Shown: positions 3,260-47,898 of the stretch, piece by piece
How positions within the stretch are numbered: the first letter of the stretch is position 1
Layout of the letters: each line of letters starts with the position of its first letter
IMG/VR virus record: IMGVR_UViG_3300012205_000005
Span: 1 to 48,328 of that record
Length of the DNA stretch: 48,328 bases
Origin: a virus
Reading direction: 5' to 3' (one strand)
The notes under the pieces: model-generated
Told to the model about the DNA's origin: nothing
Databases searched by the model: none
Seen by the model: only the letters and a program-made list of their open reading frames with translations
Position numbers and translations under genes: made by a program

Positions 3260-3575
3260 TGAATTACATCCCGATAGTCAGAGATTCATGGAACTCTGCG
3301 AGAACTTAAAGGAAGTTCACCTTGCTAAGTCCCACGATTACGGGCATAACAACCAACCCCTAGCAAACTTTGAGGAGTCGACTAGGTTTAACGTCCGCCC
3401 GTTCGTTGGTATCATGATCCGCCTTAACGATAAGATGATTCGAATCCAGAACTTCATCGATAAAGGTAACCTTAAATGTGAAGGGGTATTTGACGCTCTC
3501 CAGGACATCGCCGCTTACGCACTTCTAGCACAAATCCAACTAACAAAGGAAACTCATGGACCTGGGAAAGATTGA
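3228..3575 (+). CDS. Nucleotide modification associated domain 1 (DUF1599-like) protein
   Basis: About 115 aa from GTG 3228. That start has GGAGG at 3217-3221 with 6 nt spacing; upstream GTG 3213 and ATG 3222 are alternatives with worse spacing. The pattern KSHDYG, PLANFEES, then GIMIRLNDKMIRI and a final DIAAYALLA segment matches the Nmad1/DUF1599 family. This family is small and alpha-helical, often found in phages with modified DNA, and of undetermined biochemical role. It lies between queE and folE and its end overlaps folE by 20 nt, which supports a role around the modification pathway. Confidence 0.75.
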   Translation: MPDSRYLDQTSELHPDSQRFMELCENLKEVHLAKSHDYGHNNQPLANFEESTRFNVRPFVGIMIRLNDKMIRIQNFIDKGNLKCEGVFDALQDIAAYALLAQIQLTKETHGPGKD

Positions 3576-4095
3576 ATCCGGGGTTGAACTTATATTGAAA
3601 GGCCTGGGTTGCAACCTCGCCGATCGTAACTTCCTCGATACCCCTAACCGGGTTGCCAGGTTTTACGAAGAGATGTTCACCACTAAAGATACCGAGTGGG
3701 CTACCTTCCCGGAGGATTACACCGATTTCATCATGCTTAGAGGGCATAGAATGTGGTCGTTGTGTCCACATCATTTGATACCGGTTAGGTTTGATGTTTC
3801 CCTTGCCTATATCCCAAATGGAGAGGTCTTGGGGTTGTCCAAGCTCGCCCGAGTCCTCGATGAAGCAAACTCAGGCCCACTCCTGCAAGAAAAATTCACC
3901 TTGGAGGTGGTCAACAATGTCCATTCAATCTGCACAGGAATTAAAGGTTGTGCTGTCCTCGTCGAAGGCCAACACGGATGCACTCTTATCCGGGGTGTTA
4001 GGTCTCCCGCCGAGTTTGTCACTTACCGGTTGGATGGGGTGTTCAGAGAGCAACCGGAGCTTGAAGAACGATTCTTCCAACTCGCCAGACGATGA
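3556..4095 (+). CDS. folE: GTP cyclohydrolase I (FolE)
   Basis: 179 aa. It converts GTP to dihydroneopterin triphosphate, the first step towards both folate and preQ0; here the context is preQ0. Visible motifs are the N-terminal helix with DTPNRVARFYEEM, the zinc-binding SLCPHHLIPV (Cys and His pair), LGLSKLARV, and GQHGCTLIRGV, which supplies the catalytic His and third zinc Cys. Length fits the family (180-220 aa). AAAGGAAA precedes the ATG and the start overlaps the Nmad1 gene. A phage copy frees the pathway from host folate regulation. Confidence 0.93.
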   Translation: MDLGKIESGVELILKGLGCNLADRNFLDTPNRVARFYEEMFTTKDTEWATFPEDYTDFIMLRGHRMWSLCPHHLIPVRFDVSLAYIPNGEVLGLSKLARVLDEANSGPLLQEKFTLEVVNNVHSICTGIKGCAVLVEGQHGCTLIRGVRSPAEFVTYRLDGVFREQPELEERFFQLARR

Positions 4096-4189: not shown

Positions 4190-6681
4190 CCAAACCCGGA
4201 CCACTTTGTCATAAATGCCCACTTAAAGACGCCCCAGGTCCAGTCTGGGGGGAAGGACCTAGTAATGCAAAACTCGTGGTTGTCGGTCAATGTCCAGGGC
4301 CAGACGAAATTACCCAAGGTAGACCGTTTATTGGAGGCTCTGGAGGAATACTTGAGCGAAGTCTACAACGAGCTGGATTTAGCCGATCAAACTCGTTTGT
4401 CACCAACTCAGTTAAATGTTTCGTGCGACCTAAAACTCCAGTTCCTAGTGGAGCAGTCGAGTGTTGTGAACCTCTCTTACGGAAGGAGCTGGATACCCTC
4501 GAGCAGCACACAACAATCCTAACCCTCGGTCAGGAGGCGTTTCATGGGTTTACAGCAAAAAAGATGCTCACGGTTAGTCCACCCAGGTCACAAAAGAAAC
4601 CACCTAACCCCAACAACTGGCTTAGAGGATGTGTTTATCCATTGGGACAATCCCGACAGATTATCCCCGCCGCCCACCCAGCTTATGTTGCCTCTACAGG
4701 GTTCCGTGACGCTACCTTCTTCGACTGCGACGTTGCCAAAGCGGTTAGGTTTGCAAGGGGGGAAGGGGTAAGGATCGAGGAGCATTATGACTATAATCCA
4801 ACAAGCAAAATCGTCCTTGAATACATTGAAGAGATCCTCGCTCAAGGCGACTTTGGTCTTGACTATGAAACTCCCGAGAAGAGCGCGGCTGAGGAAGAAG
4901 AAGAACTTCTTGGCACAGGTCGTACTGACATCCAAGTTGCAGGTCTCTCTCACGCACCTGGATACTGTATTGGGGTACCAGGTGATATGTTATCCCTACT
5001 CAAGAACCTTTTCACTGGACGGCATGATCGACCCCTGTACTGCCGAGTATTCAACTGGGGTTTTGAGGGTTATCATTCCGCTAGACAGTTTGGAGAACTT
5101 ACAGTCATCCCAATAGATTTAATGTTACAATTAAACAGGTGCTATAGTGACTCTAAACGCAAGGATTTGGGTACCGCGCTTTCGCTCTTTACTGATATGC
5201 CTTATACTAAAAACCTTTCTAAAACAGATCCCAACCGATACAACGCATGTGACACTTACGGCACCCTCGTCGGATCTCGTAACGCACAGAGGTATATGGA
5301 GCAACTTCATATCTGGGGAGCATATTTGGATGCTGACGTGTCACTCTGGCAAGCCGTCATTGATATGAAAGTTGACGGTACCCGATGCGATGTTGAACAC
5401 GCTCAAAGGATGGAGTTACAATGTTACAAAGCGTTGAACGCGTACGAAGATTGGTGGCGCGGGAAGATCCCTTTAGTAGACTGGCAAAGTCCAAAGCAAT
5501 TGCTAGCTCTATTCGCTTCACTCAAGCTTCCGATCGTATACAGAAAGCGCAACAAGCATGTATCGAACTCAAAGACAGGGGAGACAGGTTACAGGACCCA
5601 GGTCAAGACTCCCTCCTGCGACCAGAAAGTCTTAGAGATGTACCGTGATAAGTACCAAAACCAACTCGCTGGACTCCTTCTTACAATGCGTAAGCTCAAG
5701 AAGGCGAGCGACTTCACGCATATCTATGCATCCGACGGGAGAGCTCATCCTAGCCATAAAATCCATGGGCAGGTTGCGGGACGTGTCCAAGCCAAGGATC
5801 CTGACCTGCAGAATATACCAGAGGAGTTGGCCGGTATACACCCTCGCACAATTATCATACCTGATGACCCTACACAAGATTGTATCATTTCTGCTGACTT
5901 TGAAGCTATCGAGTTTTTCATTTACGGTTACGCGGCTCAAGATGAACCCATACTTAGGGCCCGACGTGAAGGCACCTACATCTACGGTCTCTTCTACGAG
6001 GAGATCTTCCACAAGCCATTTTTCGAACCTGGACGACCTCCTAAAAAGGCTTACCGTCGCAAGGATATCCCCCCTTGGGAACTCCTTGTTGCCAAGAGTG
6101 GCCCACTTGGATTGCTCTACGGGCGAGGTGCGAAGAGCTTGGAGGACGGTTTTGGAATTCCCAAATCGCAGGCTTATAAAATCTACGACGATTTCTTCAA
6201 AGAGCATTGGGCAGTGGCACGTTACCATCAAGTTCTTATGAGTGAGGTAAACAAGAATGGGTATCTGCGGAATTACTTTAACCGGATCCGATGGTTCCCT
6301 AACGCGAACGGCATGCGGAATGAAATTTTGGCGTACCCCGGACAGAGTAACGCAGCTGATATCCTCATTAGGAATGCTATCGTACCCTGTTACAGTAGTA
6401 TTAAAGATTTCGGCGGTCGATTACTTTTCCCGGTCCACGATTCAGTTCAGTTCACGGTCCCAAGGCGAGCTCTGCACGGAGCTGTTGAGTATATTAGAGA
6501 ATGTCTCGAAAGGCCTATACCCGAGATGAACAACTTCTTCATCCCTTGCGCGATCAAAGTAGGAACTATAGAAACCTCAACAACTGGTAAACCTAACTGG
6601 GGGGATCTCATGTTATGGGAGGATTTCTGTGCCGAGTACCCGAGAGCAACTCGAAATCTTCAAGGAGTTCCTCAAGGGTAA
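4186..6681 (+). CDS. UDG-family 4-like domain fused to family A DNA polymerase
   Basis: 831 aa. Residues about 5-190 form a uracil-DNA glycosylase family 4/5-like domain: cluster cysteines C8 and C11 (CHKC), VVVGQCPGPDE, GRPFIGGSG, two later cysteines (VKCF and ECC) and AAHPAYV. Next comes a 3'-5' exonuclease domain with LDYET (about 226) and NACDTYGT (about 355). The polymerase palm and fingers have ADFEAIEFF (motif A, about 571), a motif B K...LGLLYG with Leu at the position of E. coli Phe762 (about 641), and VHDS (motif C, about 751) in place of HDE. Phage SPO1 has a similar UDG-like extension on its polymerase. This is the replicative polymerase. Its start overlaps the acidic frame, and its 3' end overlaps the DUF3987 gene by 53 nt. 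Confidence 0.92.
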   Translation: MTKPGPLCHKCPLKDAPGPVWGEGPSNAKLVVVGQCPGPDEITQGRPFIGGSGGILERSLQRAGFSRSNSFVTNSVKCFVRPKTPVPSGAVECCEPLLRKELDTLEQHTTILTLGQEAFHGFTAKKMLTVSPPRSQKKPPNPNNWLRGCVYPLGQSRQIIPAAHPAYVASTGFRDATFFDCDVAKAVRFARGEGVRIEEHYDYNPTSKIVLEYIEEILAQGDFGLDYETPEKSAAEEEEELLGTGRTDIQVAGLSHAPGYCIGVPGDMLSLLKNLFTGRHDRPLYCRVFNWGFEGYHSARQFGELTVIPIDLMLQLNRCYSDSKRKDLGTALSLFTDMPYTKNLSKTDPNRYNACDTYGTLVGSRNAQRYMEQLHIWGAYLDADVSLWQAVIDMKVDGTRCDVEHAQRMELQCYKALNAYEDWWRGKIPLVDWQSPKQLLALFASLKLPIVYRKRNKHVSNSKTGETGYRTQVKTPSCDQKVLEMYRDKYQNQLAGLLLTMRKLKKASDFTHIYASDGRAHPSHKIHGQVAGRVQAKDPDLQNIPEELAGIHPRTIIIPDDPTQDCIISADFEAIEFFIYGYAAQDEPILRARREGTYIYGLFYEEIFHKPFFEPGRPPKKAYRRKDIPPWELLVAKSGPLGLLYGRGAKSLEDGFGIPKSQAYKIYDDFFKEHWAVARYHQVLMSEVNKNGYLRNYFNRIRWFPNANGMRNEILAYPGQSNAADILIRNAIVPCYSSIKDFGGRLLFPVHDSVQFTVPRRALHGAVEYIRECLERPIPEMNNFFIPCAIKVGTIETSTTGKPNWGDLMLWEDFCAEYPRATRNLQGVPQG

Positions 6682-13049: not shown

Positions 13050-13399
13050 GGCACCGTTGGTGGATTCATCGTAGGTGGCGATGGAAACGTAAAGGTATAG
13101 GTGAAAGTCAACCCAGAAATCAAGGCTACGTTAGCCTTCTGGTAAGACCCACCTGATACCTTACTCCAGTACACGTTGTAACCCGCGACGGTTGACGTAC
13201 TAGCTATCCAAGATAAGTCAACGATGTTATGAAGTGGGTTAGAGGTAACCGTAGCTGAAACTTCATTAGAGAAACTAGACTCCGTTCCATTCACGTCGAC
13301 CGCGGTTGCTACGAAGAAGAGCTTTACCGACTGCTGCCCTTTTGCCAAATTGGGAATTAGGAACAGCAATAACGTCGTTAACAGAATCTTCAATTTCAC
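13046..13399 (-). CDS. Secreted fibronectin type III-like protein
   Basis: 117 aa. A typical Sec signal peptide (MKLKILLTTLLLFLIPNLAKG, cleavage near residue 22) precedes a beta-rich domain with VDLSWIASTSTVAGYNVYWS, the FN3 B-C strand pattern, and a Pro-rich end. It overlaps both neighbours by 4 nt. FN3/Ig-like domains are common on phage particles, but with a signal peptide the protein may decorate the infected cell envelope. Confidence 0.6.
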   Translation of the reverse strand: MKLKILLTTLLLFLIPNLAKGQQSVKLFFVATAVDVNGTESSFSNEVSATVTSNPLHNIVDLSWIASTSTVAGYNVYWSKVSGGSYQKANVALISGLTFTYTFTFPSPPTMNPPTVP

Positions 13400-13767
13400 T
13401 TCATCCTCCTTGTTCGTTTATTAAGTTCTTCGATTGCGAGTAAAATCTTGTGACGTAGAAGCTTGTTAATATCTGGTTTAGGTGGGGTTGATAGAAACAC
13501 TAGAGCTAACTCAGCTTGCCTTCTTTTAATGATGAGATGAGGCAGGAGTAATGTTAGAACATTCCTCATCGAACCTTTACTTGTGAACTTCAATCTAGTG
13601 AAACCAGTAGAATCGGTATGAGGGGTACCGCCTACTCTTTCCTCTATTAAGGTAAGTACTTCCAGTACACGATTACCTACCGTAACTCCAACCTCGTTAT
13701 TACCCCAATCAGGAAAGATAGAACCTTCTCCATCGAAAAATCCTGCTATATACTCAAGGGAGATCAC
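13396..13767 (-). CDS. LAGLIDADG homing endonuclease
   Basis: 123 aa. One LAGLIDADG motif near the N-terminus (YIAGFFDGEGSI) and the usual second half (LLPHLIIKRRQAELALVFL) indicate a single-motif enzyme that would act as a homodimer. The start codon overlaps the stop of the 1722-aa gene (ATGA), as for the other LAGLIDADG genes here. No intron core or intein splice motifs flank it, so it is free-standing. Confidence 0.88.
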   Translation of the reverse strand: MISLEYIAGFFDGEGSIFPDWGNNEVGVTVGNRVLEVLTLIEERVGGTPHTDSTGFTRLKFTSKGSMRNVLTLLLPHLIIKRRQAELALVFLSTPPKPDINKLLRHKILLAIEELNKRTRRMK

Positions 13768-30539: not shown

Positions 30540-30980
30540 CTATCCTCGAGGAGGTTTACCCACCTCGAATACCGGTGATCCCTGCTTTTCGGCTTCGTCT
30601 TTGAATACTCGAGGAGCATTATTTCTCTGGGCTTCGTTAATCTCGACGTACTCCTGTTGGAGCATCTCGTAAAGCCAGGAGTCGATCTCCATGAGGATTA
30701 CGTCACCTATAACATACGTGCCGTCTTCCTTGAGACCGTTGGCTCTCCAGGCAGGGTTCTTAGGGTCGTCATGCACTATTGTGAACCCAACCCAGGATAG
30801 CCTACCCATTTCACGAGTGTCGGTTATGTGAGCCCAGTAACCAGACTTGCCGGCAGGAGGGGTCACCTCTATTTGTGACCTACCCATATTCTTGCGTAAT
30901 TCGCTAAAGCGACGTTTCTTTTCCTCTAGCGAGAGAGGCTCCACTTTGGGAGCGGAAGTCGGTGTTATTGGAGTCGCCAT
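30540..30980 (-). CDS. Hypothetical protein near capsid genes
   Basis: 146 aa. A basic, helical start (LEEKKRRFSELRKNM) precedes a compact domain (YWAHITDTREMGRLSWVGF, GDVILMEIDSWLYEML). It lies between the LAGLIDADG gene and decoration gene and may be a head assembly factor. It shares one base with the LAGLIDADG stop. No family recognised. Confidence 0.55.
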   Translation of the reverse strand: MATPITPTSAPKVEPLSLEEKKRRFSELRKNMGRSQIEVTPPAGKSGYWAHITDTREMGRLSWVGFTIVHDDPKNPAWRANGLKEDGTYVIGDVILMEIDSWLYEMLQQEYVEINEAQRNNAPRVFKDEAEKQGSPVFEVGKPPRG

Positions 30981-31435
30981 TATCGTTCTCCTTGGTTAAG
31001 CTTTTGTATTTCTTGGGCGATACGAATGCGGAAAAGCTTTACGGTATTATCTACAGGTTCACCCTGCTTACCGTAAGTATACGCGATACCTAAAGCCAAA
31101 CGAGCTTGTTCCTTTTTGACGAGTAAATGAGGGAGTATTGGCTCAAGGAACCGAATTATATTCTTCCCGTAAATGCCCCAGTAATACATCAACTTTCGGT
31201 TCTCTACTTTAGGTCTATCCTTAAGACTCCCACCAAAAAGTTCAAGGGCTATATCTAGTGGTCTTCGGCAAGAATTATGTAGTACAGCACTTATACTAAC
31301 ATGCCCTTCCGGACCGATTCCTGGATCAATACTACCTTCTCCATCAAGGAAAGCTGCGAAGTACCCAAGTTCAATTTCCGTCGGAAGTCTAGAAGGTTCG
31401 AATTCAGGTTTAGGTAAGAGCCCTGATACAATCAT
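30980..31435 (-). CDS. LAGLIDADG homing endonuclease
   Basis: 151 aa. The LAGLIDADG helix is YFAAFLDGEGSI near residue 28; FLEPILPHLLVKKEQARLAL is the characteristic second segment. Its ATG overlaps the stop of the scaffold-like gene by four bases. It separates two head genes of the late unit. Free-standing, since both sides abut coding sequence and leave no room for an intron core. Confidence 0.88.
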   Translation of the reverse strand: MIVSGLLPKPEFEPSRLPTEIELGYFAAFLDGEGSIDPGIGPEGHVSISAVLHNSCRRPLDIALELFGGSLKDRPKVENRKLMYYWGIYGKNIIRFLEPILPHLLVKKEQARLALGIAYTYGKQGEPVDNTVKLFRIRIAQEIQKLNQGER

Positions 31436-43617: not shown

Positions 43618-44607
43618 GTGATAATTAACATCTCACGCTCACAGTTTTTCCAACAATGTCGTCGTAAGCAATGGTTTTACGACCAGGGGCTCGTCCAACT
43701 CGGGGTTGCTGAACCATTGATAACAGGAAGTGCTTACCACGCTGGGGCCGCGGTATTGACCGCTAAGAAAGATCGGGAAGGTGCGATTAAAGCAGCGGAG
43801 GGTCATTACCGAACCGAACTCGCCAAGGTCAAACTCATCCTTCCTGAAGAACAAGTTCTCCACGAACGTAACATTGAACTTGTCAAACGGATGTTGAACG
43901 CCCAAGCCGACCAGTATGTTAAAGACACATGGACGGTGTTGAAACCTGAGGTGGAGTTTTTAGTGCCGTTACCGAATACTCAACATCACTGTTGGTTCAT
44001 CCATAAATTCTTGTTCGAAGCTGGTGAAATTCCGAACAACCTTGACATATGTATGAATCCCAAGTGCATTCAACCCCACTTCCTCAAAGGTAAAACCGAT
44101 GCGGTCCTATCCTGGAATTCCATGATCTGGATCATGGAACGTAAGACCAGCGGCATGAAACAAAACATATTTTGGGATCAATGGTATTTGTCACATCAGC
44201 TGACAGCCTACGTCTACGGGGTTCGTAAATCCACCAACCTCCCCGTCAATGGAGTCATCCTTGAAAAAATGCCCAAGCCTGCCAAGAATCAAGATCCGTT
44301 CAGTTTCAATTATAGTCCGGAACGCGAACCTTACCTACGTTCAGAGAGCGACCTCCAACAATTCGAGGCTGAAATCAGCAATATCGCGAGCGATTACGAG
44401 CGAGCTGCCGTGGTTGGCAAGGGAGCTTTCTACAGGAACCCCCAATCCTGCATCGATTACAATCGCCGTTGCGATTACTGGGATTGTTGTAAAAGGGGAG
44501 GGGAACCCAATCCGGGGGAATTCAGGCAACGGGATAAAGACTACGTAGAGAAGGCGTATTACACCCTTCTCGGACTCTCAATTCCGGAGACAGCAAATGT
44601 TCAATGA
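43618..44607 (+). CDS. PD-(D/E)XK exonuclease, Cas4/RecB-like
   Basis: 329 aa. N-terminal SRSQFFQQCRRKQWFYDQGL resembles the first Cys helix of Cas4/AddB-type nucleases; GSAYHAGAAVL follows. The core GKTDAVLSWNSMIWIMERKTSG supplies the D and ExK residues, and QLTAYVYGV the motif IV Gln/Tyr. Late cysteines (CIDYNRRCDYWDCC) could close a 4Fe-4S cluster with the first one. GTG start at 43618. Such exonucleases pair with Sak4-type recombinases and SSB proteins, both found downstream. Its 3' end overlaps a LAGLIDADG gene by 11 nt. Confidence 0.78.
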   Translation: MIINISRSQFFQQCRRKQWFYDQGLVQLGVAEPLITGSAYHAGAAVLTAKKDREGAIKAAEGHYRTELAKVKLILPEEQVLHERNIELVKRMLNAQADQYVKDTWTVLKPEVEFLVPLPNTQHHCWFIHKFLFEAGEIPNNLDICMNPKCIQPHFLKGKTDAVLSWNSMIWIMERKTSGMKQNIFWDQWYLSHQLTAYVYGVRKSTNLPVNGVILEKMPKPAKNQDPFSFNYSPEREPYLRSESDLQQFEAEISNIASDYERAAVVGKGAFYRNPQSCIDYNRRCDYWDCCKRGGEPNPGEFRQRDKDYVEKAYYTLLGLSIPETANVQ

Positions 44608-45058
44608 CGCTTATTTAGCAGGTTTGCTGGAAGGTGAAGGAGCAGTTACCTTAGTCTTTGGACCTGGTTGTTACATAGGTCGAATAAGAGTATCTATTGC
44701 ACAAAGCCATCTTCCCTTCATTCAAGAGCTTCAGGCTGATATCGGTGGCGCGATCGCACATAGCGGACCACAAAAGTCGATCTGCTGGAAAGTTTGGTTA
44801 GAAAAAGCAGATGAAGTTCAGAGATTCCTATCCCGTGTAGTCCCTCACCTAAAGATGCGTAACGAAGAAGTAGCTATCGCGATTGCGATATGTACATTAG
44901 TAAAGGCTCCAGGTGAACACTACACAGAACAGGAAAAACTCGTAAGAATCATCTTACAAGACAGATTTACCGCTGCGCAAGAGAAACGGAAGAAGGTCGC
45001 AAGACCTGGAATGGAGGTCCCATCCTTACCTGCAGAGAATGTGGCGGTCAAGCAGTAG
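44597..45058 (+). CDS. LAGLIDADG homing endonuclease
   Basis: 153 aa. YLAGLLEGEGAV near the N-terminus is the LAGLIDADG helix; FLSRVVPHLKMRNEEVAIAIAI is the matching second segment. ATG 44597 overlaps the exonuclease stop by 11 nt. A zinc-ribbon frame without a start codon begins inside its 3' end, suggesting that this gene displaced the head of that one. Free-standing. Confidence 0.86.
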   Translation: MFNDAYLAGLLEGEGAVTLVFGPGCYIGRIRVSIAQSHLPFIQELQADIGGAIAHSGPQKSICWKVWLEKADEVQRFLSRVVPHLKMRNEEVAIAIAICTLVKAPGEHYTEQEKLVRIILQDRFTAAQEKRKKVARPGMEVPSLPAENVAVKQ

Positions 45059-45228
45059 TTGATCAAGGTCAACGCGCAATCGTCAGCTATCGAGATTTAT
45101 GGTACGCTGTCAAGTGCAGTGGGTGTGGGCGTCACCTCGGTCTCCTAGCCAACGTTGAATCACCCCAATTATACGATCCAGATCAACAGGAGAGGTATCG
45201 GGTATGTCCCAAACTGCAATCGCACTAA
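45001..45228 (+). pseudogene. Headless zinc-ribbon reading frame
   Basis: An open frame (from 44917 in fact) without ATG, GTG or TTG reads WNGGPILTCRECGGQAVVD, then WYAVKCSGCGRHLGLLANV and ends at TAA 45226-45228. The two CxxC pairs make a plausible zinc ribbon. Its front lies in the LAGLIDADG gene, so it is probably the remainder of a gene beheaded by that insertion; ATT 44965 is a remote alternative start. It overlaps the queC start by 25 nt. Confidence 0.5.
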
Positions 45229-45899
45229 TGTCAGGAGGTTTAGACAGCACAACCGCAATCGCTGTCGCCCAACATGAACACGACATCTCGGTTAAAGCTG
45301 GTATTACTATTCTCTACGGACAAAAACACCATCGCGAAGTTCGAGCAGCTGAAGAAGTTGCAGACTTCTACGGGTTCACCCACTACGTTATCGATCTCAC
45401 AAGTCTTGGATGTATTATCCGAAGGTCATCCGCCTTACTTAACCCGGATGAACCTCTTCCGCACGACCGAGCGCTCAGTGAAATGACAGCTCGAGTTCCA
45501 CGCAGTTACGTACCCGGTCGCAACACAATCATGCTCGCACTTGCTCAATCCATCGCGGAGACTTATGACCTTGAAACAATCGTTACCGGATTCAACGCAG
45601 TCGATTTTTCGGGTTACCCTGATACTAGGCCGATCTTTGTCGATGCCTGGAACCATCTTGCACGTTACAGTACTAAACGGGGATACCAGGATAACAAACC
45701 TATTCTCTGCCTCGCTCCCATTATCAACTCGTCTAAGGCTTCTGTGGTGGCTATTGGCCGGGAATTTAAAGTACCCTTTCACCTTACGTGGTCGTGTTAT
45801 GAAGGGGGACCCAACGCTTGCGGACGATGTGATTCTTGCAGGATAAGGTTGGACGCGTTTAAGGAGAACAACATGGAGGATCCCATCGAATATGCTTGA
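45204..45899 (+). CDS. queC: QueC, 7-cyano-7-deazaguanine (preQ0) synthase
   Basis: 231 aa, the family length. ATP-dependent conversion of 7-carboxy-7-deazaguanine plus ammonia to preQ0. The PP-loop SGGLDSTTA is at residue 10. VPGRNTIMLALAQS, GFNAVDFSGYPDTRP and a C-terminal zinc site (CYEGGPNACGRCDSC, four cysteines) are all intact. ACAGGAGAGG lies upstream of ATG 45204. It stands 4.3 kb (over the junction) before queD, separated by recombination genes and LAGLIDADG genes, yet on the same strand and probably in the same unit. Confidence 0.95.
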   Translation: MSQTAIALMSGGLDSTTAIAVAQHEHDISVKAGITILYGQKHHREVRAAEEVADFYGFTHYVIDLTSLGCIIRRSSALLNPDEPLPHDRALSEMTARVPRSYVPGRNTIMLALAQSIAETYDLETIVTGFNAVDFSGYPDTRPIFVDAWNHLARYSTKRGYQDNKPILCLAPIINSSKASVVAIGREFKVPFHLTWSCYEGGPNACGRCDSCRIRLDAFKENNMEDPIEYA

Positions 45900-46326
45900 T
45901 CCTAAATATATTGCCGGATTATTCGATGGCGAAGGTTGTATTGGGCAAAACTTTACCAACACTGGTTTTAGAGTTTTGCAAGTCAGCATTTCCAACAACT
46001 ACAAACCTGTTCTTGACGATCTCAAACTTCAGTTCGGAGGAGGTGTATATCCGTTGAATAAGTGTTTCCAGTGGCGAATAGGTGCTGCTGACGACATCTT
46101 CGTGTTCTTAACTGCTGTCAGTCCACATCTGTTCATCAAGAAGGCAGAAGCTGCAGTTGCTCTCGCAATTTCTCAAACGGTAGGTTCGGGTGGTAGACTT
46201 ACCGACCAAACAATTCTGCTGAGAGAACGCTTATTCGATATGCTAACGGAAGCTGGTGATAGGCGCAAATCTTTCCGCGAGGAGGTGAATGAACATGTCG
46301 CCGAAGTACAACACGATAGTGATTGA
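45892..46326 (+). CDS. LAGLIDADG homing endonuclease, upstream of permuted Sak4
   Basis: 144 aa. YIAGLFDGEGCIG is the LAGLIDADG helix and FLTAVSPHLFIKKAEAAVALAI the second segment. ATG 45892 overlaps the queC stop by 8 nt. Its 3' end contains GGAGGTG, the ribosome site of the following Sak4 fragment (ATG 46295). It is a divergent relative of the truncated copy at 47056: both share the KP-L and GGG-Y core and a DDIF/DEIF segment. Confidence 0.87.
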   Translation: MLDPKYIAGLFDGEGCIGQNFTNTGFRVLQVSISNNYKPVLDDLKLQFGGGVYPLNKCFQWRIGAADDIFVFLTAVSPHLFIKKAEAAVALAISQTVGSGGRLTDQTILLRERLFDMLTEAGDRRKSFREEVNEHVAEVQHDSD

Positions 46327-47063
46327 CTCAGTCCATGAATGGGCAAGGCTGACATTCTCCTAAGGACATGAAGAAACACGCTGGGGACTTTGAATCCATC
46401 CGGATGGTCAACAATTACCCTGGCGCAACCGAACGAATCAACATGGTTGTCAGACGGTTCAAGGATTTCCAGCTTAAGGGAATCCAAGTCGTTATGACCG
46501 CTCACGAGCAGATTGAAAAGATTTACGCTCGTGGTGGCATGATCTCAGGCAAAGGTCAACCCCCATCCGATCCAATTGGGGTCAAAGGATGGCCCAATCT
46601 TCCCGGTACAACTTGTCCAACCGAAGTTATGGGAGCGTGCGATAATGTCTTCCGAATGAGGAGGGTAAATGGTAAACCCAGCTGGATTTGTGTACCTGAA
46701 GCGCTTGGGGGTGGCGGCGATAACTGGGTCGCTAAAGATCGATTTAACGCTCCTTCCCTCAATGCTGCAGGAGTACTCCCGGCTGACTACACCGAGGTCG
46801 CGAAACTCGCGGAGGCTTCGCCTACGTGTACGTGGACTCCTCCGTACATATGGCTTGTTTACGGAGAACCTGGTGTTGGCAAGACGAGAGCGTTACTTAC
46901 ATTCCCGAGACCAATGCATATCTTTGATATCGACCGGGGTGCAAGTGTTCTTAAAGGGAAAGATGGCAAATTCCCGGAAGGGATAACCCTTAGTCAATAT
47001 AACAGTGAAGAGAGCGATGACTATCCCAAATTCATATCCGACCTAGAGGCCGCTAATGCGTGA
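46295..47063 (+). CDS. Circularly permuted Sak4-like RecA-fold ATPase, with +1 frameshift
   Basis: Two frames. From ATG 46295 (GGAGGTG upstream): YNTIVIDSVHEWARLTFS, the Walker B strand, then TAA 46361-46363. Skipping one base at TCC-TAA restores the long frame (KDMKKHAGDF...), which holds the usual Sak4 second half: QVVMTAHEQIE, DPIGVKGWPNLPG, DNVFRMRR, DNWVAKDRFN. It then runs without stop or start into the family's first half: WLVYGEPGVGKTRALLTFP (Walker A, 46862-46885), MHIFDIDRGAS and FISDLEAANA, stop at 47063. Joining end to front rebuilds a normal order. Sak4 proteins anneal or exchange strands with an SSB; an SSB-like gene follows. It is either a working permuted protein (about 256 aa) or a rearranged remnant. 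Confidence 0.7.
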
Positions 47064-47289
47064 GTTAACTCCTGAATACCTTGCAGGCTTCTTCGAGGGT
47101 GATGGTTACGCAGGCATTTCCTCTAACGGACCTCACTTATCAGCTGGTGCTTGGTTAATTAACGATTTCAAACCCCTTCTTACGCAAGTTATGAAACAAT
47201 ACGGTGGGGGCCTCTACCATCAAGCGGGAAGCGATTGTTGGAAATGGTGCGCAAAAGGTTCCGACGAAATTTTCGGGGACGAGGATTGA
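47056..47289 (+). CDS. Truncated LAGLIDADG homing endonuclease
   Basis: 77 aa. YLAGFFEGDGYAG is the LAGLIDADG helix and PLLTQVMKQYGGGLYHQ matches the core of the copy at 45892. The frame ends at SDEIFGDED, where the relative continues for about 75 more residues, so the C-terminal half is lost and the enzyme is probably dead. ATG 47056 overlaps the stop of the Sak4-like frame by 8 nt, right at the point where that protein should go on to Walker B. Confidence 0.78.
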   Translation: MRELTPEYLAGFFEGDGYAGISSNGPHLSAGAWLINDFKPLLTQVMKQYGGGLYHQAGSDCWKWCAKGSDEIFGDED

Positions 47290-47292
47290 AAT

Positions 47293-47487
47293 ATGCCAAA
47301 CACGAGTTTCACCGTAACAGTGATTGATTGCTGGCCAAAGCTTAAAGTCCTAATCCTCCGCGGGGGCAACGCGAGGGATGAAGGTCCCGTCCAATACGAT
47401 ATTGCCCAATCTCAATTTACACCCGCTGTAACCGACGCACTTAGGTTATGCGTCGAGGAAATAATCAGAAAACGAAAAGGAGAATGA
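47293..47487 (+). CDS. Small hypothetical protein
   Basis: 64 aa (MPNTSFTVTVIDCWPKLKVLI), beta-strand start then a helix (PAVTDALRLCVEEIIRKRK). Only a weak GAGG precedes the ATG. Between the truncated LAGLIDADG gene and the SSB-like gene. No family recognised. Confidence 0.5.
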   Translation: MPNTSFTVTVIDCWPKLKVLILRGGNARDEGPVQYDIAQSQFTPAVTDALRLCVEEIIRKRKGE

Positions 47488-47490
47488 AGA

Positions 47491-47898
47491 ATGCCTGTCT
47501 ACACTCATGACATGTCCAAGGTCGACAAGTGGGGTGATATCGCCAACGAGGGCTGGTATAGAGTCCGGATTGAGAAAGGTCAGGAAAAACCCAGTGAAAA
47601 CACCCCAGGTGAACTCGTCTGGTGGTTGTTCCTCCGGGTACAAAACGAACCTCATGTTGGTAAGTTAATCATGGACAACTGTTCCCTCCAACCTCACGCA
47701 CTCGCGAAGTTGAAAGCGTACTATGAAGCCGTAGGGTACCTCCCCGGCCCCGAAGGTCACGATCCCGAACGGCTTAACTCGGGTGAGTGTTTCGTCAAGG
47801 TCGAACACGACACTTACAAAGGAGAAAAACGAGCCAAGATTGCTCCTTATAACATCCGATCACTTCAGGAAGGCCCCAAGGGAGCAATGGCGGTTTGA
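47491..47898 (+). CDS. SSB-like protein (DUF669-type)
   Basis: 135 aa with an excellent ribosome site (AAAAGGAG). EGWYRVRIEKGQEKPSENTPGEL and WWLFLRVQNEPHVGKLI form an OB-like strand pattern; LAKLKAYYEAVGYLPG and GECFVKVEHDTYKGEKRAKI are typical of the DUF669-type phage single-strand binding proteins next to Sak4 genes. It would coat DNA for the exonuclease/Sak4 pair. Confidence 0.7.
   Translation: MPVYTHDMSKVDKWGDIANEGWYRVRIEKGQEKPSENTPGELVWWLFLRVQNEPHVGKLIMDNCSLQPHALAKLKAYYEAVGYLPGPEGHDPERLNSGECFVKVEHDTYKGEKRAKIAPYNIRSLQEGPKGAMAV

Follow-up and report, generated by a model that had tools for sequence, protein, structure and literature searches.

Background

Few P-loop enzymes are naturally circularly permuted, and the best-known cases are the GTPases of ribosome assembly. 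Permuted P-loop domains have been described in GTPases such as RbgA/YlqF (PMC6912228). Like the gene discussed here, RbgA/YlqF and YloQ/RsgA encode natural and conserved P-loop NTPase domains with permuted motifs. They are TRAFAC GTPases, another branch of the P-loop proteins, and not RecA-like recombinases.

The Sak4 annealing proteins of phages (phrog_124; PF13479, AAA_24) do belong to the RecA side. They carry a Walker A, a Walker B, an HE motif after strand 4 and a KxR finger, and their genes lie alongside an exonuclease and an SSB-like gene. With ATP, the Sak4 of phage HK620 binds ssDNA and anneals it, and the cognate SSB stimulates this protein (PMC5928155). The Sak4 of phage 52A (ORF016, PDB 8RC5) makes filaments with ATPgammaS at the interfaces. 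There the ATP analogue is touched by Lys41, Thr42 and Tyr216 of one subunit and also by Lys229, Arg231 and His232 of its neighbour (PMC11846896).

This work concerns a gene in the viral record IMGVR_UViG_3300012205_000005, positions 1 to 48,328 of which are called the window here. We believe the gene is very probably a copy of a conserved, naturally circularly permuted family of Sak4 recombinases. The family is homologous to Sak4 once its sequence is rotated, and it shares all four motifs and the gene context given above, yet it fails the motif order that marks Sak4 proteins. Its halves are swapped, its new termini lie before the Walker B strand, and a linker of 36-38 residues joins the old C-terminal and N-terminal parts. 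The same swap is found intact in at least 15 related viral genomes, so the permuted order is no assembly error but a genuine, natural rearrangement of a core DNA-repair fold. In the literature outside subscription journals we found no paper that describes a Sak4, or any recombinase of the RecA fold, in permuted form.

The gene in the window

The sequence at 46295-47063 encodes a Sak4-like ATPase with its Walker B half ahead of its Walker A half. The motifs run from TIVIDS (46313-46330) through HEQIEKIYARGG, DNWVAKDRFN and YGEPGVGKTR (46860-46889) to DLEAANA and the stop at 47063, and both this order and its positions agree with the original prediction. The Walker B strand TIVIDS is followed by a helix and strand, TERINMVVRRFKDF and VVMTAHEQIEKIYARGG, and then by KDRF (46734-46745), whose K and R are invariant in the family and align with K229 and R231 of the 52A Sak4. 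The 38-residue linker (46746-46859) leads from what was ancestrally the C-terminal part into what was the N-terminal part. The Walker A comes next, and after it the next strand, HIFDIDRG, and the last helix, which ends in DLEAANA at the stop. Ahead of the ATG at 46295 there is a strong ribosome site, gaggaggtg, also as predicted.

The halves had been described as fused in frame, and this is true of the junction between them. The passage from DRFN to GEPGVGKT lies inside a single open frame of 231 amino acids on the plus strand (46368-47063), which holds the remainder of the Walker B half, the linker and the Walker A half. It is not true of the beginning of the gene. The first piece (46295-46363, plus strand), with the start codon, the Walker B strand MSPKYNTIVIDSVHEWARLTFS and a stop, aligns to residues 16-31 of the intact relative P0001 and is out of frame with the rest. 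The second frame opens with its own ATG at 46368, a few bases past that stop. Compared with every intact relative, the frame shifts by one base between about 46358 and about 46368, so the window copy is two ORFs where its relatives have one, and the expectation that a whole protein could be read from it as it stands is not supported.

The rest of the gene has not evolved faster than its relatives (dN is 0.281 between L002 and the window, 0.279 between L027 and the window and 0.349 between L002 and L027), so the frame change may be a recent break, an assembly slip, or a change tolerated because two coupled pieces are translated. We rejected faster decay of this copy, since the window is the shortest end branch of its four-member clade. 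Programmed +1 frameshifting was also rejected, as there is no obvious stimulator near the site and it is seen in no relative.

The main ORF matches phrog_124 with E = 1.9e-16 and AAA_24 above the family cut-off, and its protein is 65-67% identical to that of an independent viral contig with the same order. The identity and the profile match together put the gene far beyond chance. No GTPase family appears in the Pfam or NCBIfam results for the permuted gene; Sak4/AAA_24 and TIGR01618 appear instead.

The neighbours are all on the plus strand. The exonuclease of the gene's recombination module (phrog_1218) lies at 43618-44607, and queC, for 7-cyano-7-deazaguanine synthase, at 45204-45899 is the upstream neighbour in all relatives examined. 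A free-standing LAGLIDADG endonuclease gene (45892-46326) overlaps the start of the permuted sak4 by 32 bases at its 3' end, and a truncated LAGLIDADG gene (47056-47289) begins just ahead of the sak4 stop. Downstream, a 64-aa ORF (47293-47487) has no family match; sak4 is trailed by a small ORF like it in the relatives read, and it is a possible partner of the permuted sak4. The DUF669-like gene at 47491-47898, probably SSB-like, is conserved beside the permuted gene.

The window has five LAGLIDADG-type genes in all (44597-45058, 45892-46326 and 47056-47289, with 13396-13767 and 30980-31435 on the minus strand), several of which start at or within the end of the preceding gene. It also encodes a preQ0 pathway, with queD, queE, folE and queC at 1273-1809, 2052-2738, 3556-4095 and 45204-45899, which suggests 7-deazaguanine modification of the phage DNA.

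The permuted order in related viruses

Relatives were gathered by stepwise IMG/VR searches beginning with the 231-aa ORF. The first, contig 3300036791_001288, has a single intact permuted ORF of 274 amino acids that is 65% identical. The permuted gene was found in 19 contigs besides the window, with protein identity down to about 42%: 15 are intact single ORFs, one (L021) has a nonsense codon and three run off contig ends. The gene is complete in 16 contigs besides the window, and Walker B comes before Walker A in all 17 full-length holders. The normal order occurs in no member of the family, and no intermediate form, tandem or normal-order, was found in the permuted lineage among the contigs gathered.

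In L021 there is an in-frame TGA (6388-6390) where L007 has Trp. We rejected recoding of TGA, as the other real genes compared at that locus have no in-frame TGA; the codon is likely a nonsense mutation.

Scanning the contigs with phrog_124 gave one Sak4 locus in each and no second Sak4 in any contig scanned. Sixteen contigs show two matches in swapped order, with the halves in one frame. The remaining contigs, with a single match, are the three partial ones and L002, in which hmmscan picks up the Walker B half. As a control, the same scan was run on the normal-order gene of L074, which phrog_124 matches without a break at 168.6 bits. The start codons lie a few codons ahead of the Walker B strand (KYKTVAFDS) with the end of queC or an endonuclease gene nearby, and the following gene starts at, or shortly past, the sak4 stop. 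Because these neighbours fix both termini, no missing halves are hidden outside the gene. The linker from KxRF to YG is 36-38 residues in all 16 aligned members.

All of the permuted sequences are metagenomic. INPHARED phages gave no match by tblastn with two family members, and two scans of GTDB genome contigs gave no relative.

Rotation and the match to Sak4

Homology to Sak4 spans both halves of the RecA core (phrog_124, and AAA_24 over its cut-off). When the proteins of L010 and L018 are doubled, phrog_124 makes one continuous match over the end-to-start junction (profile positions 42-214 and 43-237), and AAA_24 is likewise continuous across it (5-139 and 6-142). The phrog_124 E-values, which reach 1.1e-25 in the family, fall to 1.4e-55 for the doubled sequence.

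The nearest normal-order match found is the Sak4 of IMG/VR contig 3300025141_001813 (L074:2863-3711). Its locus matches the permuted loci in the order of its genes (exonuclease-like, Sak4, DUF669-like-position), and the protein has a KDR motif and GVGKTR. Unlike the permuted loci, it has Walker A first and lacks QueC between the exonuclease and Sak4. The family alignment in its natural order covers 40 columns of the L074 protein and 36 of the 52A Sak4. After rotation the match covers about 134 columns of the former (E 5e-7 to 1e-11) and 144 of the latter (E 2e-4 to 4e-6), for any cut placed from about residue 85 to about residue 185. The rotated profile puts the family's KDRF on KIRH of the 52A Sak4 (FETKIRH), in an alignment of low identity. 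A sequence search of the PDB returned weak matches only, 8RC5 among them at E 0.048, and the doubled sequence returned nothing useful; the HK620 Sak4 is too diverged to align directly with the permuted family.

The AlphaFold models are confident (pLDDT 75 and 81, pTM 0.78 and 0.81), with the longest low-confidence run after strand 4. No RecA-like PDB chain was returned by searches that depend on sequence order and are unsuited to a permuted chain. An empty result is what such a chain would give; it counts neither for nor against the RecA fold, which gets no independent confirmation there. Foldseek against the PDB found nothing. The best VIA-align scores (Z 7.0-7.5) are to cis-prenyltransferases and amino-acid/UMP kinases, within background, with RecA-like chains absent. 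The top BFVD match for both models is the 248-aa viral protein A0A516LUR7 (Foldseek E 6e-4 to 1e-3, probability 1.00, TM about 0.4, 16-17% identity), which may be a distant permuted relative.

Selection and other explanations

Strong purifying selection acts on both halves of the protein: each is separately constrained with low dN/dS, and the linker is more relaxed. The dN/dS values in the closest pairs are 0.018/1.08 (L011/L019) and 0.085/1.22 (L017/L018). The distance matrices of the two halves correlate at r = 0.82, a value that none of 9999 permutations reached; this is what one protein evolving as a unit should show. The 16 other complete genes, the profile and rotation tests and the selection on both halves strongly support the original prediction of a circularly permuted, Sak4-like protein of the RecA fold.

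We think it unlikely, though it is the best of the rivals, that the permuted gene is real and expressed but works without ATPase-driven recombination, kept as a DNA-binding or structural partner. In its favour, the glycine before the Walker A lysine has become K or E in two sublineages, GIKKT (L011, L019) and GMEKT (L007, L021), where nucleotide use may be altered, and the copies in the window and L021 are broken. Yet most members keep a complete Walker A, Walker B and KxR. The full GxxxxGKT is present in the window, L002, L004, L006, L010, L012, L013, L015, L017, L018, L027, L029 and L045. Among the residues that do not vary are the lysine and threonine of Walker A, an acidic residue past the second strand, the HE pair, and both K and R in KxR. 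Even the GIKKT pair is strongly constrained in both halves (dN/dS 0.02), and the exonuclease and SSB-like neighbours are retained.

Less probable again is the idea that subunits swap domains, the Walker A of one chain pairing with the next chain's Walker B to make a covalently staggered filament. The length of the linker could permit either arrangement and Sak4 filaments already share ATP sites (PMC11846896), but the single-chain AlphaFold model is confident overall (pTM 0.81).

A separate question is how the permutation arose. Circular permutations of any kind are usually explained by a tandem duplication whose outer parts are then lost. The original prediction added that a homing endonuclease had first split sak4, so that a unit of N-half, endonuclease and C-half was duplicated and its outer halves lost. 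This is compatible with a natural permuted family, and it has in its favour the endonuclease genes that adjoin both ends of the window gene and the one that L007 has at the same upstream boundary. We nevertheless regard it as very improbable: 14 of the 16 relatives have no LAGLIDADG gene seen near the permuted sak4, and those present (on both sides in the window, on the upstream side in L007, further upstream in L027) are free-standing genes at gene boundaries, outside sak4. The proposed check turned up no sak4 of normal order in which an endonuclease marks this split point, and Rfam gives no group I intron match at 43.0-48.3 kb. Nothing in these data ties the tandem-duplication route to endonucleases.

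The weakest reading, that a single metagenome contig is chimeric or carries a rearranged copy in decay and that no real protein is made, could point to the window's frame shift past the Walker B strand and its truncated flanking endonuclease gene, but it can hardly be correct when other contigs share the order, linker length and neighbours, 15 of them with intact ORFs, dN/dS is far under 1 and the contigs scanned lack a second Sak4. Chimerism and a second intact Sak4 had been raised from the start as what would count against the permutation; both were tested and neither occurred.

Conclusions

We therefore return to a conserved, permuted Sak4 family. Its most likely role, judged from homology, motifs and context, is ATP-dependent annealing of exonuclease-exposed ssDNA, because the gene sits beside an exonuclease and an SSB-like gene as in the HK620 Sak4 module. 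The permuted order, its recurrence, the conserved motifs and context, the purifying selection and the confident fold prediction are direct results; from them we infer ATPase activity, annealing activity and filament formation. The chain begins at the Walker B strand and passes through the remaining RecA core as far as the KxR finger and then the C-terminal helix; the linker leads from there into the former N-terminus, made up of the Walker A strand with its loop, the second strand and the helix after it. Folding should bring both Walker motifs together in one ATP site. ATP would sit at the subunit interfaces, with Walker A from one subunit and KxR from the next. The protein would coat the ssDNA produced by the neighbouring exonuclease, helped by the neighbouring SSB-like protein, and the coated strand would be annealed to homologous ssDNA.

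It is possible, and we offer this only tentatively as the less probable case, that this is the first naturally circularly permuted RecA/Rad51-type recombinase and that the permutation alters how subunits connect, possibly through a domain-swapped filament. If it is true, homologous annealing in these phages uses a filament with a chain topology unlike that of every known RecA-family protein. With at least 15 intact natural homologues, a recombinase of this permuted kind would be evidence that new ends can be placed inside the RecA core, and it would explain why such genes get annotated as fragments or missed. The permuted Sak4s would also supply ready-made proteins for testing the control that ATP-site topology and the linkage of subunits exert over filament formation.
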